NCBI GenBank assembly: GCA_028291515.1
Contig: JAQGHU010000009.1
Span: 1 to 64,000 of the forward strand
Origin: Schlesneria sp.
GTDB lineage: Bacteria > Planctomycetota > Planctomycetia > Planctomycetales > Planctomycetaceae
Length of the DNA stretch: 64,000 nt
Direction: 5' to 3'
Both the position numbers and the translations under genes were made by a program. Below, one piece after another: positions 5,562 through 20,507 of the stretch (position 1 is its first letter; every line of letters begins with the position of its first letter). The notes under the pieces were generated by a model, which searched no databases, was not told the origin of the DNA, and saw nothing but the letters and a program-made list of their open reading frames with translations.

Positions 5562-6213
5562 GAGCGGGGGGCGTAAGCCCCCTGGCAGGTTTGGGATTTT
5601 GGGGTAGGCTGACATCGCTCTCGGTTTGGGGAGACGCGAGATGTCCTTTCTTCAGCAGTTTGGTCGAATGCAGCCGGGGGGCTTACGCCCATGCGTATGG
5701 CGAGCAGCCTGCTCCGCCCAACTCGGCGTTACGATCATGGGTGACGAAACAGCTCAAAGGTGGTCCTGTTCGGCTGAGTGTTCAGCAGGCCGAAGTCCTG
5801 TTGGAGCAATTCCACACCACCGCCGAACATCGCGGCTGGAGATTGCACGCGGTCGCCGTGATGGCCACGCACGTTCATGTCGTCATGTCGGCACCAGAAT
5901 CCGTGGAGGCCGAGGATATCGTTCGGGATCTGAAGAGCTACGGTTCACGGCGTCTTACGCAGCAGTCGGGAAAGCCTGCGTCAGGAACCTGGTGGACCGA
6001 ATCGGCGTCGCGCCGGCCGCTGGATCAAGAGAGTAATGTTGAATCTGCCGTGCGATATGTTGCCGAGCAGCAGTCTCCGTTGGCGTTGTGGGTTCACCAG
6101 GAGTTTCAATGGCTTGTTCCGGAGAAGAGGAGAGATGCGTTGAGTGAAATTGGGCCAGGGGGCTTACGCCCCCCGCTCGGGAGGACGGAAGAGGTCAGGG
6201 GGCTTACGCCCCC
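5562..6213 (+). mobile_element. REP/RAYT element (palindromic repeats flanking a Y1 transposase remnant)
   Basis: A 25-base sequence at 5562-5586 is repeated perfectly in inverted orientation at 6154-6178; its core is GGGGGGCGTAAGCCCCC, itself an imperfect palindrome. Further copies of the core lie at about 5675-5690 and 6196-6213. Between the two main copies is a coding segment for an IS200-like (Y1) REP-associated tyrosine transposase. This is the layout of a RAYT with its REP sequences: terminal hairpins around a single HUH nuclease. The element lies between mdh and bioA and is read in frame into bioA. Confidence 0.75.
5695..6139 (+). pseudogene. REP-associated tyrosine transposase (RAYT), N-terminally truncated
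   Basis: The reading frame that enters bioA first encodes a Y1-transposase-like domain. The HUH nuclease motif is visible as ATHVHVVMSAP, and the catalytic tyrosine is probably the Y of RDLKSYGSRRLTQQ. The later GTWWTESASRR and VRYVAEQQSPLALW pieces are typical of the C-terminal helix region. The N-terminal segment that normally precedes it (the TYGTWLPGD-like strand) is missing; in its place is sequence translated from a REP copy at 5675-5690. There is no good start codon with a ribosome binding site, and no stop before bioA. RAYTs process REP hairpins as single-strand nucleases; activity here is doubtful because of the missing first strand. Confidence 0.65.
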
Positions 6214-18002: not shown

Positions 18003-18026
18003 CCAAAAGCCAAACGGAAGCTTGAA

Positions 18027-18063
18027 AAAGCCCGGTGTCACGCAAAGGACACCGGGCTTTTTT
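18027..18063 (+). terminator. Rho-independent terminator
   Basis: AAAGCCCGGTGTC pairs perfectly with GACACCGGGCTTT around an eight-base loop, and is followed by a T run. It would end the candidate small RNA and isolate the tRNA array that starts at 18112. Confidence 0.88.
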
Positions 18064-18111: not shown

Positions 18112-18184
18112 GGGATCAAGGTGTTAGCGGCAGCACACTCGGCTCTTAACCGAGCAGGTGACGGTTCAAGTCCGTCTGGTCCCA
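18112..18184 (+). tRNA. tRNA-Lys (CTT)
   Basis: The acceptor arms GGGATCA and TGGTCCC pair, the anticodon loop is CTCTTAA between CTCGG and CCGAG, and the T arm is GACGG-TTCAAGT-CCGTC. Discriminator base A. No CCA is encoded, as for every tRNA in this array. First gene of the array. Confidence 0.93.
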
Positions 18185-18309
18185 TGCGTCCGAATCGCTT
18201 TGCGATTTGGACGCAGAGAGTGGAGGGGAGAAAGTAGAGAGTAGAAAAGAAGGTGATGCACGGCGTTTTTCTACTCTCTCGGCTTCCGTGGCGACACGGA
18301 AGCCGCTAT
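18185..18309 (+). repeat. tRNA-array spacer element 1
   Basis: Three hairpins in order: a GC-rich one (GCGTCCGAATCGC with GCGATTTGGACGC), a long purine-rich arm (AGAGAGTAGAAAAG) facing TTTTCTACTCTCT, and GGCTTCCGTG with CACGGAAGCC-type pairing. The same three-part design recurs in four other spacers. Confidence 0.75.
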
Positions 18310-18384
18310 TGCGGTGGAGTCCGTGTTGGTACGGGCAGGCGGCTATTAACCGCCCGATCACAGGTTCGATTCCTGTCGCCGCAG
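18310..18384 (+). tRNA. tRNA-Asn-like with ATT anticodon
   Basis: A complete cloverleaf: acceptor TGCGGTG/CGCCGCA, D stem GTCC/GGGC with GG in the loop, anticodon stem GGCGG/CCGCC, T arm ACAGG-TTCGATT-CCTGT. The anticodon loop is CTATTAA, giving ATT. The normal bacterial Asn anticodon is GTT. The discriminator would be G, as in tRNA-Asn. Identity is inferred from the anticodon and G73. Confidence 0.8.
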
Positions 18385-18424
18385 CTTGATGGTGTTCGTC
18401 ATCGGATTGAGGCAGGCAATTCGT

Positions 18425-18745
18425 CTACCAACCAGGAATGGGCAGTGAATGTTTGCTCGCCGCGATTCGAAGTCGCCTCGCGAGAGATGGAGCCACGATG
18501 CTCAATTCGTGCGGTATTTCTGCTACTTCGTAGCAGATTGTGAGTCCGGTCCATGTCGCTTGCACCGAAGTCATTTCGGTCCAGGCAAGCACGGTGTCAC
18601 GCAAGAAAGTGGTTTGGATGGTGATGCCCTTCTCAGTCACAACCAGGCGACCGAGTGGCCAATCGGCTCGTTTGATCACTGGGACAGTCCATCCGGTTCC
18701 GGACGAAAGGTCAAAACCGATTCGAGCAATCAATAGTTCGTTCAT
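18425..18745 (-). CDS. Small PH-like domain protein, antisense within the tRNA array
   Basis: The frame encodes 106 residues from an ATG at 18745. The pattern WPLGRLVVTEKGITIQT, then LAWTEMTSVQATWTGLTI, then a terminal helix SLARRLRIAASK resembles bacterial PH-like domains, with alternating strands ended by an amphipathic helix. No signal peptide or membrane segment is present. An AGGTCG element lies 5 bases before the ATG; an in-frame ATG at 18808 would add 21 residues. It is transcribed opposite to the tRNAs on either side. Function is unknown; the PH-like call is by strand pattern only. Confidence 0.55.
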   Translation of the reverse strand: MNELLIARIGFDLSSGTGWTVPVIKRADWPLGRLVVTEKGITIQTTFLRDTVLAWTEMTSVQATWTGLTICYEVAEIPHELSIVAPSLARRLRIAASKHSLPIPGW

Positions 18746-18818
18746 TGTTCGACCTGCAACAAGTTCCTTCCTTTCTATCAGTACGCAATCGGGGCGAATG
18801 TGGATCACAAGTGAATTT

Positions 18819-18902
18819 GGAAGTCATCCGGCTGGATGAGGAACCTGCCTCGAAAGCAGGTGCGAGCAACACTCGTTGTGGGTTCGAGTCCCACGGCTTC
18901 CG
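18819..18902 (+). tRNA. tRNA-Ser (CGA)
   Basis: Acceptor GGAAGTC/GGCTTCC, anticodon loop CTCGAAA between CCTGC and GCAGG, a long variable arm (GCGAGCAACACTCGT), T arm GTGGG-TTCGAGT-CCCAC, discriminator G. Class II tRNA, as expected for serine. Confidence 0.94.
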
Positions 18903-19046
18903 TTGCGTCCCAATCGCGGTGCGATTGGGACGCAGAGAGTAGTGGGTAGAAAGTAGAGAGTAGAAAAGCGCTGTGCATAACCGTCTTCTCTACTTTCTAC
19001 TCTCTCCCCTCTACTCTCTCGACTTCCGCGGCAACGCGGAAGTCGC
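18903..19046 (+). repeat. tRNA-array spacer element 2
   Basis: Begins with the hairpin CGTCCCAATCGC/GCGATTGGGACG, then purine-rich units GAGAGTAGTGGGTAGAAAG and GTAGAGAGTAGAAAAG, a short loop, pyrimidine-rich units CTCTACTTTCTACTCTCTC and CTCTACTCTCTC, and ends with CTTCCGCG/CGCGGAAG. This is the clearest copy of the design. Confidence 0.78.
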
Positions 19047-19118
19047 GTGCCCTTGGCCGAGTGGCAGAGGTGCCAGACTTCCAATCTGGACAGGCAGGTT
19101 CGATTCCCGCAGGGCACT
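19047..19118 (+). tRNA. tRNA-Gly (TCC)
   Basis: Acceptor GTGCCCT/AGGGCAC, anticodon loop CTTCCAA between CCAGA and TCTGG, T arm with TTCGATT, discriminator T as usual for glycine. Five bases separate it from the next tRNA. Confidence 0.93.
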
Positions 19119-19123
19119 TTCGA

Positions 19124-19198
19124 TGCGGGGTAGTTTCTGTTGGTAGAAATCCGTGGCTTTGAACCACGGGTCCGCTGGTTCGATTCCAGCCCCCGCAA
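19124..19198 (+). tRNA. tRNA-Gln (TTG)
   Basis: Acceptor TGCGGGG/CCCCGCA with a weak T-A first pair typical of Gln, anticodon loop CTTTGAA between CGTGG and CCACG, T arm CTGG-TTCGATT-CCAG. Confidence 0.92.
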
Positions 19199-19205
19199 TT
19201 GTTTG

Positions 19206-19290
19206 GGAAGCCATCCGACCGGATGAGGAACTTGTCTTGAAAACAGGCGACGGATAACACCGTTTGTGGGTTCGAGTCCCACGGCTTCCG
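19206..19290 (+). tRNA. tRNA-Ser (TGA)
   Basis: Acceptor GGAAGCC/GGCTTCC, anticodon loop CTTGAAA between CTTGT and ACAGG, long variable arm, T arm GTGGG-TTCGAGT-CCCAC, discriminator G. Closely related to the Ser (CGA) gene at 18819, suggesting local duplication. Confidence 0.94.
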
Positions 19291-19432
19291 TGCGTCCAAA
19301 TCGCTTTGCGATTTGGACGCAGAGAGTAGAGAGTGGAAAGTAGAGAGTGGACATGACGTTACGAAGCGGGTTTTTCTACTGTCTACTTTCTCACCGCTAC
19401 TCTCTCGACTTCCGCGGCAACGCGGAAGTCGC
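19291..19432 (+). repeat. tRNA-array spacer element 3
   Basis: Hairpin GCGTCCAAATCGC/GCGATTTGGACGC, purine units AGAGAGTAGAGAGTGGAAAG and GTAGAGAGTGGACA, loop, pyrimidine units CTACTGTCTACTTTCTC and CTACTCTCTC, and the CTTCCGCG/CGCGGAAG hairpin, as in elements 1 and 2. Confidence 0.76.
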
Positions 19433-19503
19433 GGGCTCATGGTCCAAGAGAAAGATCTCGGTCTTGCAAACCGAGGATTCGGGTGCAAGTCCCGATGAGT
19501 CCA
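19433..19503 (+). tRNA. tRNA-Ala (TGC), non-canonical D and T loops
   Basis: Acceptor GGGCTCA/TGAGTCC and anticodon loop CTTGCAA (stem TCGGT/ACCGA) are fine. The D loop is CAAGAGAAA, lacking the GG that contacts the T loop, and the T loop is TGCAAGT, with G where almost every tRNA has the U that becomes pseudouridine 55. Compare the normal Ala (GGC) gene at 20005. May be a decaying or specialised tRNA. Confidence 0.75.
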
Positions 19504-19533
19504 CTGCGGCTGCGCCGGAGAGAAAGCGGGCAT

Positions 19534-19606
19534 GCCCAAGTATGCCAATGGTTGAGCAACTCGTCTTAAACACGAGTGTTTGCGGGTTCGAATCCCGCCT
19601 TGGGCA
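19534..19606 (+). tRNA. tRNA-Leu-like (TAA) with short variable loop
   Basis: Acceptor GCCCAAG/CTTGGGC, D loop with GG, anticodon loop CTTAAAC between CTCGT and ACGAG, T arm GCGGG-TTCGAAT-CCCGC, discriminator A. The anticodon TAA reads the Leu codon UUA. The variable loop is only about five bases, whereas bacterial tRNA-Leu has a long extra arm. Confidence 0.78.
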
Positions 19607-19624
19607 CATGATGAATAGATCAAC

Positions 19625-19708
19625 GCGTCGGCTGGGCATTGGCGTGCCTAAGTGGCTGTAACCCACCCGCCCTCAGGGGCATTGCAGGTTCAACTCCTGC
19701 CCGACGCA
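19625..19708 (+). tRNA. tRNA-Tyr (GTA)
   Basis: Acceptor GCGTCGG/CCGACGC, anticodon loop CTGTAAC, a long variable arm around GCCCTCAGGGGC as expected for bacterial Tyr, T arm GCAGG-TTCAACT-CCTGC, discriminator A. Confidence 0.9.
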
Positions 19709-19824
19709 CTGCGGCTGTGCCGTAGAGAGAGTAGATCGGAGAAAGTAGTGAAGAAGGGACGTAGCTGTTTCTTGTCTACTTTCTACTCTCTCAAATCTAC
19801 TTTCTCGCCCGCCAAAGCGGGCGC
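19709..19824 (+). repeat. tRNA-array spacer element 4
   Basis: Starts with CTGCGGCTGTGCCGTAG, then purine units GAGAGAGTAGATCGGAGAAAG, a loop, pyrimidine units TCTACTTTCTACTCTCTC and TCTACTTTCTC, and ends with the hairpin GCCCGC/GCGGGC. Flanking hairpins differ from elements 1-3 but the purine/pyrimidine core is the same. Confidence 0.72.
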
Positions 19825-19899
19825 GTCCGAGTACGCAAATGGAAAAGCGGCCAGGTCGAGAGCCTGGTGATTTTGTGGGTTCGACTCCCACCTCGGACA
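19825..19899 (+). tRNA. tRNA-Leu-like (GAG) with short variable loop and C33
   Basis: Acceptor GTCCGAG/CTCGGAC, D stem CGC/GCG with GG in the loop, anticodon stem CCAGG/CCTGG, T arm GTGGG-TTCGACT-CCCAC. The loop TCGAGAG puts GAG at the anticodon with C instead of the universal U at position 33. The variable loop is short (about seven bases). Anticodon identity is therefore tentative. Confidence 0.65.
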
Positions 19900-19924
19900 T
19901 TGGATGAGGTGAATGGTGTGAAAG

Positions 19925-19995
19925 GGTCTGTAGGTGTTCCGGAAGCATTCCGCTTTGGTAAGGCGGCAGACCGGGTTCGATTCCCGGACGGACCT
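19925..19995 (+). tRNA. tRNA-Thr (GGT)
   Basis: Acceptor GGTCTGT/ACGGACC, anticodon loop TTGGTAA between CCGCT and GGCGG, T arm CCGGG-TTCGATT-CCCGG. Only nine bases separate it from the next tRNA. Confidence 0.9.
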
Positions 19996-20004
19996 CTGAA
20001 ATTT

Positions 20005-20075
20005 GGGCTCATGGTCTAACGGCAAGACACCGCCCTGGCGTGGCGGAGGACCGGGTTCGACTCCCGGTGAGTCCA
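20005..20075 (+). tRNA. tRNA-Ala (GGC)
   Basis: Acceptor GGGCTCA/TGAGTCC, D loop TAACGGCAA with GG, anticodon loop CTGGCGT between CCGCC and GGCGG, T arm with TTCGACT, discriminator A. The acceptor is identical to that of the aberrant Ala (TGC) gene. Confidence 0.92.
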
Positions 20076-20172
20076 CTGCGGCTTTGCCGCAGAGAGAGTG
20101 GAGATGAGAAAGTAGAGAGTAGACAAAGTGGAACTCAGTGGTTTCTTGTCTACTCTCTCGCCCGCGGGCGTT
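20076..20172 (+). repeat. tRNA-array spacer element 5
   Basis: CTGCGGC/GCCGCAG hairpin, purine units GAGAGAGTGGAGATGAGAAAG and GTAGAGAGTAGACAAAG, a loop, pyrimidine unit CTTGTCTACTCTCTC and a final GCCCGCGGGC palindrome. Shortest copy of the spacer design. Confidence 0.72.
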
Positions 20173-20260
20173 GGAAGGTAGCCGGATACGGCTGGCCGGG
20201 GCACGTTGCTAACGTGTTTCCCCTTCACTGGGGATGAGGGTTCGAATCCCTCACCTTCCG
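20173..20260 (+). tRNA. tRNA-Ser (GCT)
   Basis: Acceptor GGAAGGT/ACCTTCC, anticodon loop TTGCTAA, long variable arm CCCC-TTCACT-GGGG, T arm GAGGG-TTCGAAT-CCCTC, discriminator G. Confidence 0.94.
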
Positions 20261-20281
20261 CTGGAGACGTTGTCTCCCTTG

Positions 20282-20353
20282 GCCTTGATGGTGAAACGGA
20301 GATCATTCCCCGCTTCGAACGGGGCGTTCCAGGTTCGAATCCTGGTTGAGGCA
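20282..20353 (+). tRNA. tRNA-Arg (TCG)
   Basis: Acceptor GCCTTGA/TTGAGGC, anticodon loop CTTCGAA between CCCCG and CGGGG, T arm CCAGG-TTCGAAT-CCTGG, discriminator A. Confidence 0.92.
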
Positions 20354-20393
20354 CTGGATTGGATCGACGACGGTTATGACGACGGAAGGGCCA

Positions 20394-20471
20394 CCCGATT
20401 GGCGACGGGAACCGGTTGGAAGCCGGTCGAGCACTTGCAGTGCCTTGCGGGTTCAACTCCCGCCCCTTCCG
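20394..20471 (+). tRNA. tRNA-Ser (GGA)
   Basis: Acceptor GGAAGGG/CCCTTCC, D stem CCCG/CGGG, anticodon loop TTGGAAG between ACCGG and CCGGT, variable arm GCAC-TTGCA-GTGC, discriminator G. With CGA, TGA and GCT this completes the serine set within one array. Confidence 0.92.
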
Positions 20472-20507
20472 CTATGAGCATGAACCGGCACGGGCGGCGG
20501 ACGACTT

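Follow-up and report, generated by a model that had tools for sequence, protein, structure and literature searches.

Hairpin spacers in a Schlesneria tRNA array are homologous to the leader of a protein-bearing element found at tRNA ends

The tRNA array and its five spacers

The window analysed here, a whole stretch of 64,000 nt from contig JAQGHU010000009.1 of Schlesneria sp. (contig C24 of genome G000, 8.59 Mb), carries an array of 15 tRNA genes, all on the + strand, 14 of them found by ARAGORN and one more by Rfam. At five of the 14 junctions stands a spacer, 96-143 nt long, that lies flush with the tRNA on either side; all five share one layout: a GC hairpin, a purine arm built from a 7-nt repeat (GAGAGTA/GAAAGTA), a loop, a pyrimidine arm (shortened in spacers 1 and 5) and a second GC hairpin. 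The two end hairpins of each spacer are not copies of each other. These spacers, and their kinship with a protein-bearing element at tRNA ends of other planctomycetes, are the subject of this study. The features are listed below, with z for folding against shuffles and E for the match to R2, a profile described in the next section.

18112-20472, + strand: array of 15 tRNA genes hosting the spacers (ARAGORN 14, plus the Rfam serine-type tRNA at 19206-19289)
18185-18309, + strand: spacer 1, Lys-Asn, 125 nt; hairpin 18185-18215, purine arm from 18215, shortened pyrimidine arm to ~18280, hairpin 18280-18306; z -8.3; E 4.9e-9
18904-19046, + strand: spacer 2, Ser-Gly, 143 nt; hairpin 18904-18934, palindrome 18934-19020, hairpin 19020-19045; z -14.0; E 4.9e-17
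19290-19432, + strand: spacer 3, Ser-Ala, 143 nt; hairpin 19291-19321, palindrome 19321-19406, hairpin 19406-19431; z -11.4; E 6.4e-14
19505-19533, + strand: probable collapsed remnant of a sixth spacer, Ala-Leu
19710-19824, + strand: spacer 4, Tyr-Leu, 115 nt; hairpin 19710-19724, palindrome 19724-19806, hairpin 19806-19823; z -6.7; E 1.6e-11
20077-20172, + strand: spacer 5, Ala-Ser, 96 nt; hairpin 20077-20091, palindrome 20091-20159 with shortened pyrimidine arm, small hairpin 20160-20170; z -4.6; E 9.8e-10

Folding of all five spacers gave structures more stable than their shuffles (z -4.6 to -14.0, with 0/200 shuffles as good in each case), and this, together with ARAGORN and Rfam, confirmed the original prediction of 15 same-strand tRNA genes with five three-part hairpin spacers. 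The spacer 1 position in the sister genome G012 has a longer pyrimidine arm than in the window. Eight of the 14 junctions lack the element and measure 5-29 nt each, except for a 432-nt gap after Asn; the Ala-Leu junction (19505-19533) is read as a probable collapsed copy because the corresponding junction of G012 holds an element of 106 nt (L042:701-806). The suggestion that the spacers punctuate transcription finds little support, as a scan for intrinsic terminators returned six terminator-like sites with none inside the five spacers, although the palindromes after the solitary tRNA-Pro genes at C5 and C91 do finish with T runs. Above the gathering score, Rfam matched only tRNA, both in the array region and in seven leader loci. 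The serine-type tRNA at 19206-19289 scores 39.2 bits against the Rfam tRNA-Sec model, under the gathering score of 47.

The tRNA at 18310-18385 has the anticodon ATT and a low Rfam score (30.5 bits), and the array repeats anticodons present elsewhere (Tyr GTA, Gly TCC at C92), so that the array looks accessory and partly degenerate. Both tRNA arrays of G000 are preceded by a near-identical terminator-like hairpin, GCCCGGTGTCAC...GACACCGGGCTTTTT, at 18025-18062 of the window and at about 1195-1235 of L012.

A protein-bearing element at tRNA and tmRNA ends

In relatives, lone genes for tRNA-Pro, tRNA-Met and transfer-messenger RNA (tmRNA) are followed by the purine/pyrimidine palindrome and then by an open reading frame (ORF), mostly starting MAFAFEKL, which Pfam and NCBIfam identify as 23S_rRNA_IVP / four helix bundle protein (hereafter IVP; PF05635 E 2e-26 to 1.3e-29 in three proteins and 1.8e-18 in a truncated one). 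Solved structural relatives of the protein are 2gsc and 2rld, and below-cut-off matches to bAvd/DivGenRetAVD were also seen. The IVP copy of the window's genome, at C91, matches 66 of 106 profile positions and looks degraded; two other PF05635 matches in this genome have no tRNA nearby, and all five window spacers are too short for an S23/IVP ORF.

An alignment of eight IVP proteins (A2) served as query for one scan of GTDB genomes, which gave 420 stretches, 290 of them confirmed, and the best 80 of the 290 loci were kept. As the rows of A2 had been picked for carrying the palindrome, the scan was aimed at that subfamily. Titles of the kept loci are planctomycete, except for five plain 'bacterium' and one Actinomycetes. 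An intact same-strand tRNA or tmRNA lies 68-249 nt upstream in 51 of the 80 loci according to ARAGORN (40 Pro with all three anticodons, 4 Met, 3 tmRNA, 2 Ala and 2 Arg, tallied by hand), and in 47 of 74 once the six query-row loci (L115, L123, L126, L131, L134 and L136) are removed. Reading the other 29 loci by eye showed that 20 start at a tRNA or tmRNA 3' fragment or a mimic of a tRNA end: seven at tRNA-Pro-like 3' fragments, three at tmRNA 3' ends, seven at a right-end motif that ends like a tRNA, and three with only CCCCG at the junction. The last nine comprise two tandem copies, three loci with too little upstream DNA and four unclear cases (L146, L159, L160 and L186). In a control set of 32 PF05635 loci, a tRNA or tmRNA is adjacent in 6/9 of this subfamily vs 0/23 of the others.

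The full element has the order intact tRNA, GC hairpin, purine/pyrimidine palindrome, IVP gene and, sometimes, a right end; the unit from hairpin to gene is compact (~0.5-0.6 kb) and keeps this order in many genera; in each of the 31 leaders inspected, the palindrome separates the tRNA from the gene. The relationship of the window spacers to these leaders was assessed with R1, a covariance model of alignment A3, which consists of 18 ORF-less copies, all from the genus, and excludes the leaders of IVP elements. Of the 80 loci, 77 could be used (three had insufficient upstream DNA); in 48 of these R1 has a match immediately before the IVP gene, and it has additional matches where copies are in tandem or lack the gene. 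It matched 9/9 loci of the subfamily vs 2/23 other PF05635 loci (L095 and L099), and had no match in 30 control loci totalling 91.5 kb. The members of A4 were chosen among R1 matches. In the opposite direction, the profile R2, which uses sequence alone and was built from 16 leaders on contigs whose titles do not name Schlesneria, matched the five spacers and nothing else over the 64-kb window (best E 4.9e-17 to 4.9e-9). When run on a mixed set, R2 matched 15/15 loci with ORF-less copies and 0/19 control loci. The window spacers are homologous to the leader of a widespread protein-bearing element, which overturns the earlier view that they are related only to each other. At L099:2192-2691, R1-like palindromes of the GTTGATAG type lie between small ORFs, beside another PF05635 gene and with no tRNA; judged by eye, these small ORFs look like microcompartment shell proteins.

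The first hairpin of the element usually begins at the discriminator base. With the criterion of a perfect stem of at least six pairs whose first base falls no more than 2 nt ahead of the ARAGORN end and no more than 4 nt past it, a hairpin is found at the tRNA end in 46/51 loci (shuffles 0.5%). The stems come in 36 different sequences: it is structure, not sequence, that is conserved. In some loci the right end reads AAAAAGTTCnAnYGGYGTC followed by a few bases and a copy of the tRNA end; in some copies it mimics the T-arm of a tRNA and duplicates the final 8 nt of the tRNA gene (3' strand of the acceptor stem and discriminator base), and in L140 the tRNA-end copy is followed by a terminator-like hairpin. 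The exact 8-nt tRNA end recurs after the gene in 6/51 loci vs 0/45 and 0/41 control stretches. Some copies without a whole tRNA begin at a right end, as expected from tandem insertion, and L192 has a gene-less unit flanked by two right ends. Five hairpin-palindrome units stand in tandem after tRNA-Pro(GGG) at L170:3850-5350, where the IVP genes of units 2-4 are cut at about the same place.

Copies in the genus and the readings they bear on

The 16-nt unit (<=2 mismatches) occurs 29 times genome-wide in the own genome vs four times for its reversed control, and 12 of its 17 clusters have a tRNA within 90 nt, with one more (C22) at a tRNA-Pro 3' fragment. With R1 at E <= 0.01, and with 150 of 642 candidates scored, the own genome has eight distinct sites: three in this array, two in the second array (C109), two after tRNA-Pro (C5 and C91) and the fragment at C22, so that seven sites lie within 36 nt of a tRNA and one at a tRNA fragment. 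Spacers 1 and 5, with their shortened arms, are absent from the R1 list of this genome. Across 15 genomes of the genus, R1 matches were found in at least 12. Among the 81 distinct genus sites listed, 31 lie within 36 nt of a tRNA or tmRNA, nine have an IVP gene or a tRNA-end motif (sometimes weak), and 41 have no tRNA, tRNA fragment or IVP gene nearby. Four species (G001, G002, G005 and G006) account for 38 of these 41; among the three that remain, G012:C92 adjoins a 3' end resembling that of tRNA-Ser and missed by ARAGORN. Listed R1 sites stand at tRNA ends (within 36 nt) or a tRNA fragment in 10 of 11 cases in G012 and in four of five in G008.

An Rfam scan of 54 loci without an adjacent ARAGORN tRNA (two tmRNA loci included) gave one tRNA and two tmRNAs above the gathering score, as well as an Acido-Lenti-1 RNA (L039), a group II intron (L051) and a few weaker matches. 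The Acido-Lenti-1 RNA (L039:801-845, 39.6 bits, above gathering) lies ~70 nt from a purine-unit copy in G022, and the 3' domain of the group II intron (L051:1336-1557) ~250 nt from an S-type copy in G006. Forty stretches of viral contigs matched the pattern, none of them a relative. A dispersed copy after a 450-aa gene was considered as an empty/filled site and rejected: G005 has the site without the copy, but its left flank differs, so no clean boundary is obtained.

Presence and absence at the same tRNA pair could be compared between sister species, with pairs matched by anticodon and neighbours rather than by alignment. The Asp-Leu junction measures 6 nt in G007 and G013 and holds a 99-nt element in G008; Lys-Thr measures 8 nt in G011 and 110 nt in G008; for Lys-Ile the gap is 8 nt in G008, against 196-230 nt in G005 and G001, where it includes the left half of the element. 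The presence of a copy in one species and its absence in a sister at the same tRNA pair indicate that copies come and go. Many junctions of sister arrays have no element, and several element-free tRNA-Pro genes run into a terminator-like hairpin, others into unrelated DNA.

Taken together, we consider it probable, at roughly 70%, that the spacers are ORF-less relatives, resembling miniature inverted-repeat transposable elements (MITEs), of a small mobile element that sits at tRNA and tmRNA 3' ends in many Planctomycetota. This reading draws on the homology, the location and orientation at tRNA ends, the hairpin, the presence and absence of copies, and the tandem and ORF-less copies, all of them shown here, and it favours the small mobile repeat targeting tRNA clusters among the three guesses of the original prediction. 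The element would recombine at the 3' strand of the acceptor stem, which would leave the tRNA intact, and would be transcribed from the tRNA promoter. By analogy with the intervening sequences (IVS) of 23S rRNA, tRNA end maturation and RNase III cutting of the long stem may remove it from the tRNA precursor, in which case a copy between two tRNAs would be tolerated, as an IVS is in 23S rRNA. An element of this kind explains otherwise puzzling spacers in tRNA arrays, and its full, tandem, gene-less and collapsed copies, with element-free sisters, make mobility, target choice and RNA processing testable.

Several observations weigh against this interpretation. R1 missed 29 of the 77 leaders (28 with no match, one with a match elsewhere only), and no recombinase was identified and no gene for a mobilising enzyme seen in the unit. 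The comparison of filled and empty junctions is not polarised, so that loss is possible; none of the five window junctions was seen empty in the compared species. The exact right-hand repeat occurs in only the 6/51 loci given above, the excess with one mismatch is slight (15/51 vs 7/45 and 7/41), and a 20-nt repeat of the tRNA end after the gene is no better than its reversed control (12.5 vs 12.2); the 8-nt counts support the right end, which is nonetheless decayed or missing in many copies. The array spacers have no right end, with the second hairpin at that end instead, and no target duplication is visible at them; the short stretch of 6-8 nt that empty junctions have was not seen beside filled copies. 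The spacers may therefore differ from the full element in how they move. In the 18 genus copies the palindrome gives no covariation signal (76.9% of cells paired, shuffles 77.3%). Scatter away from tRNA genes, which the original prediction had named as the mark of an ordinary dispersed repeat, gives a mixed picture: all eight R1 sites found among the 150 scored candidates of the own genome are at a tRNA or fragment, four of its 17 unit clusters are partial with no tRNA in the 3.5 kb examined (C28, C61, C90 and C91 near 7.2 kb), and in the four sister species rich in non-tRNA copies 38 of 51 listed sites are intergenic without tRNA.

The strongest competitor, which we nevertheless regard as unlikely, holds that the copies are attachment-site debris of larger integrative elements of tRNA 3' ends, mobilised in trans by integrases and with the IVP gene as a passenger. 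Fragments of tRNA-Pro 3' ends (26-53 nt) are indeed present; three contigs have one at a distance of 4-8 kb from an intact tRNA-Pro gene, and one of these three fragments stands directly before an IVP element (G005:C129). In addition, right ends repeat the tRNA end in some loci; but a compact unit of ~0.5-0.6 kb, constant in order in many genera and found in tandem, is not expected of debris. In G000:C61, a tRNA-Pro(CGG) at 76079-76153 has a 43-nt 3' fragment 7.7 kb downstream (83839-83881), which probably marks an integrated island.

It is more doubtful still that the spacers have a function in the tRNA precursor, as sites where RNase III, P or Z separates the tRNAs, and that host selection maintains them. 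Such a role would fit the very stable folds, the hairpins flush with tRNA ends and the second hairpins of spacers 3 and 4, whose differences between G000 and G012 are confined to the loop. In the protein-bearing elements, moreover, a leader arm fits the partner from its own locus better than partners from elsewhere (13.3 vs 11.1 of 26; 0/2000 permutations, in 59 of 77 loci with both arms readable and with relatedness not corrected). Against it, the element is missing from 8/14 array junctions and from many sister-array junctions, 38 copies in four species stand away from tRNAs, and one spacer has seemingly collapsed with its tRNAs retained. The first hairpin of spacer 3 has an uncompensated stem change between G000 and G012, and identity between these genomes is 86.5% (300/347) over three aligned spacers, 96.5% (748/775) over ten tRNAs and 70-90% over other gaps, which gives no sign of strong selection on spacer sequence. 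This divergence, together with the lack of covariation within the genus, weakens the earlier suggestion of a processing signal.

Least likely of all, and improbable in our judgement, is that the spacers are ordinary dispersed palindromes of the MITE or repetitive extragenic palindromic (REP) kind, with no special tie to tRNA and piling up in tolerant places: the 41 tRNA-free sites among the 81 listed, the four partial own-genome copies and the complementary hairpins GCCGAAGCGGC/GCCGCTTCGGC in which dispersed copies terminate speak for it, but the tRNA-end sites of the own genome, G012 and G008 and the homologous leaders of tRNA-end elements in other genera speak against it, as do 0 R1 matches in 30 loci of Y1 (RAYT-type) transposases, out of 144 Y1 matches, only two of which, by coordinates, have a listed R1 site within 1.5 kb (G011:C47 and G005:C48, both IVP-bearing).

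Two further features were noted in the same genome. A Y1 transposase-like match (PF01797, E 1.5e-9) lies at 5786-6070 of the window, 12 kb from the array. Right after the second tRNA array (G000:C109), an ORF at L012:3951-4499 (MRSKLHLNVGTIGHIDHGKTTL) opens with an EF-Tu GTP-binding domain (PF00009, E 8.8e-54) and is perhaps a second, divergent EF-Tu.

Comparison with known systems

MITEs, REP sequences and bacterial interspersed mosaic elements (BIMEs) are short, ORF-less, palindromic repeats. The spacers are MITE-like in being short and multi-copy (8 own-genome sites, 81 listed in the genus), with an inverted repeat and no ORF, and they share with all three groups the dispersed copies seen in some species. 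A target-site duplication as in MITEs is not visible at the array spacers, with the 8-nt repeat present in 6/51 full elements, and the IVP element, homologous at its left end, would be the autonomous partner, but no transposase was seen in it. The strong tie to tRNA ends and the kinship with an IVP-bearing element set the spacers apart from these repeats, and, unlike REP sequences with RAYT, no element-flanked Y1 transposase was found in the 30 Y1 loci.

Integrative elements with attachment sites at tRNA 3' ends leave the tRNA intact, repeat its 3' end at their far side and can insert in tandem. The tRNA-end element resembles them in its intact tRNA, its tandem copies and, in some copies, its far-side repeat of the tRNA end, and differs in its size of ~0.5-0.6 kb, its repeat of only ~8 nt and the fact that no recombinase was seen. 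Mycobacterial tRNA arrays are reportedly dense accessory clusters, as in the window, and what we have of their description mentions no repeated hairpin spacers.

The closest parallel is the 23S rRNA IVS. The sections of PMC4990558 consulted describe such IVS with an S23/IVP gene in Coxiella, Leptospira and others, report a 28-bp stem in Coxiella that RNase III cuts, assign S23/IVP proteins no known function and leave the role of the IVS open; its main text contains 0 mentions of tRNA. An excerpt of PMC10053308 describes the S23/IVP family as resembling Avd, the accessory protein of diversity-generating retroelements. Our search of the open-access literature, which left closed journals and preprints outside, recognised no account of IVP genes at tRNA ends or of such spacers. 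Both the 23S rRNA IVS and the tRNA-end element belong to protein family PF05635/TIGR02436 by their gene, the full tRNA-end element carrying the S23/IVP ORF that serves as a criterion of the former, and both appear as small selfish elements with a long stem in a stable-RNA transcription unit. Unlike the IVS, which sits in helices such as 9, 25 and 45, the copies examined here lie at tRNA or tmRNA ends or between genes (23S genes were not searched); the stem precedes the gene rather than bracketing it with complementary ends, a hairpin flush with the tRNA is added, and the window copies are gene-less. The element is thus most likely a variant of the intervening-sequence kind that falls outside the 23S rRNA IVS family by location and layout. 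More tentatively, there may be a phylum-wide class of mobile elements that have an S23/Avd-like gene and no other, target the 3' end of the acceptor stem in tRNA and tmRNA genes and live on the transcription and maturation of these RNAs. Movement would perhaps proceed via RNA, given that the element ends coincide with tRNA processing sites and that the protein family is kin to the retroelement accessory protein. If so, parasites of stable RNAs would form a wider group, with the 23S rRNA IVS as one of its branches.

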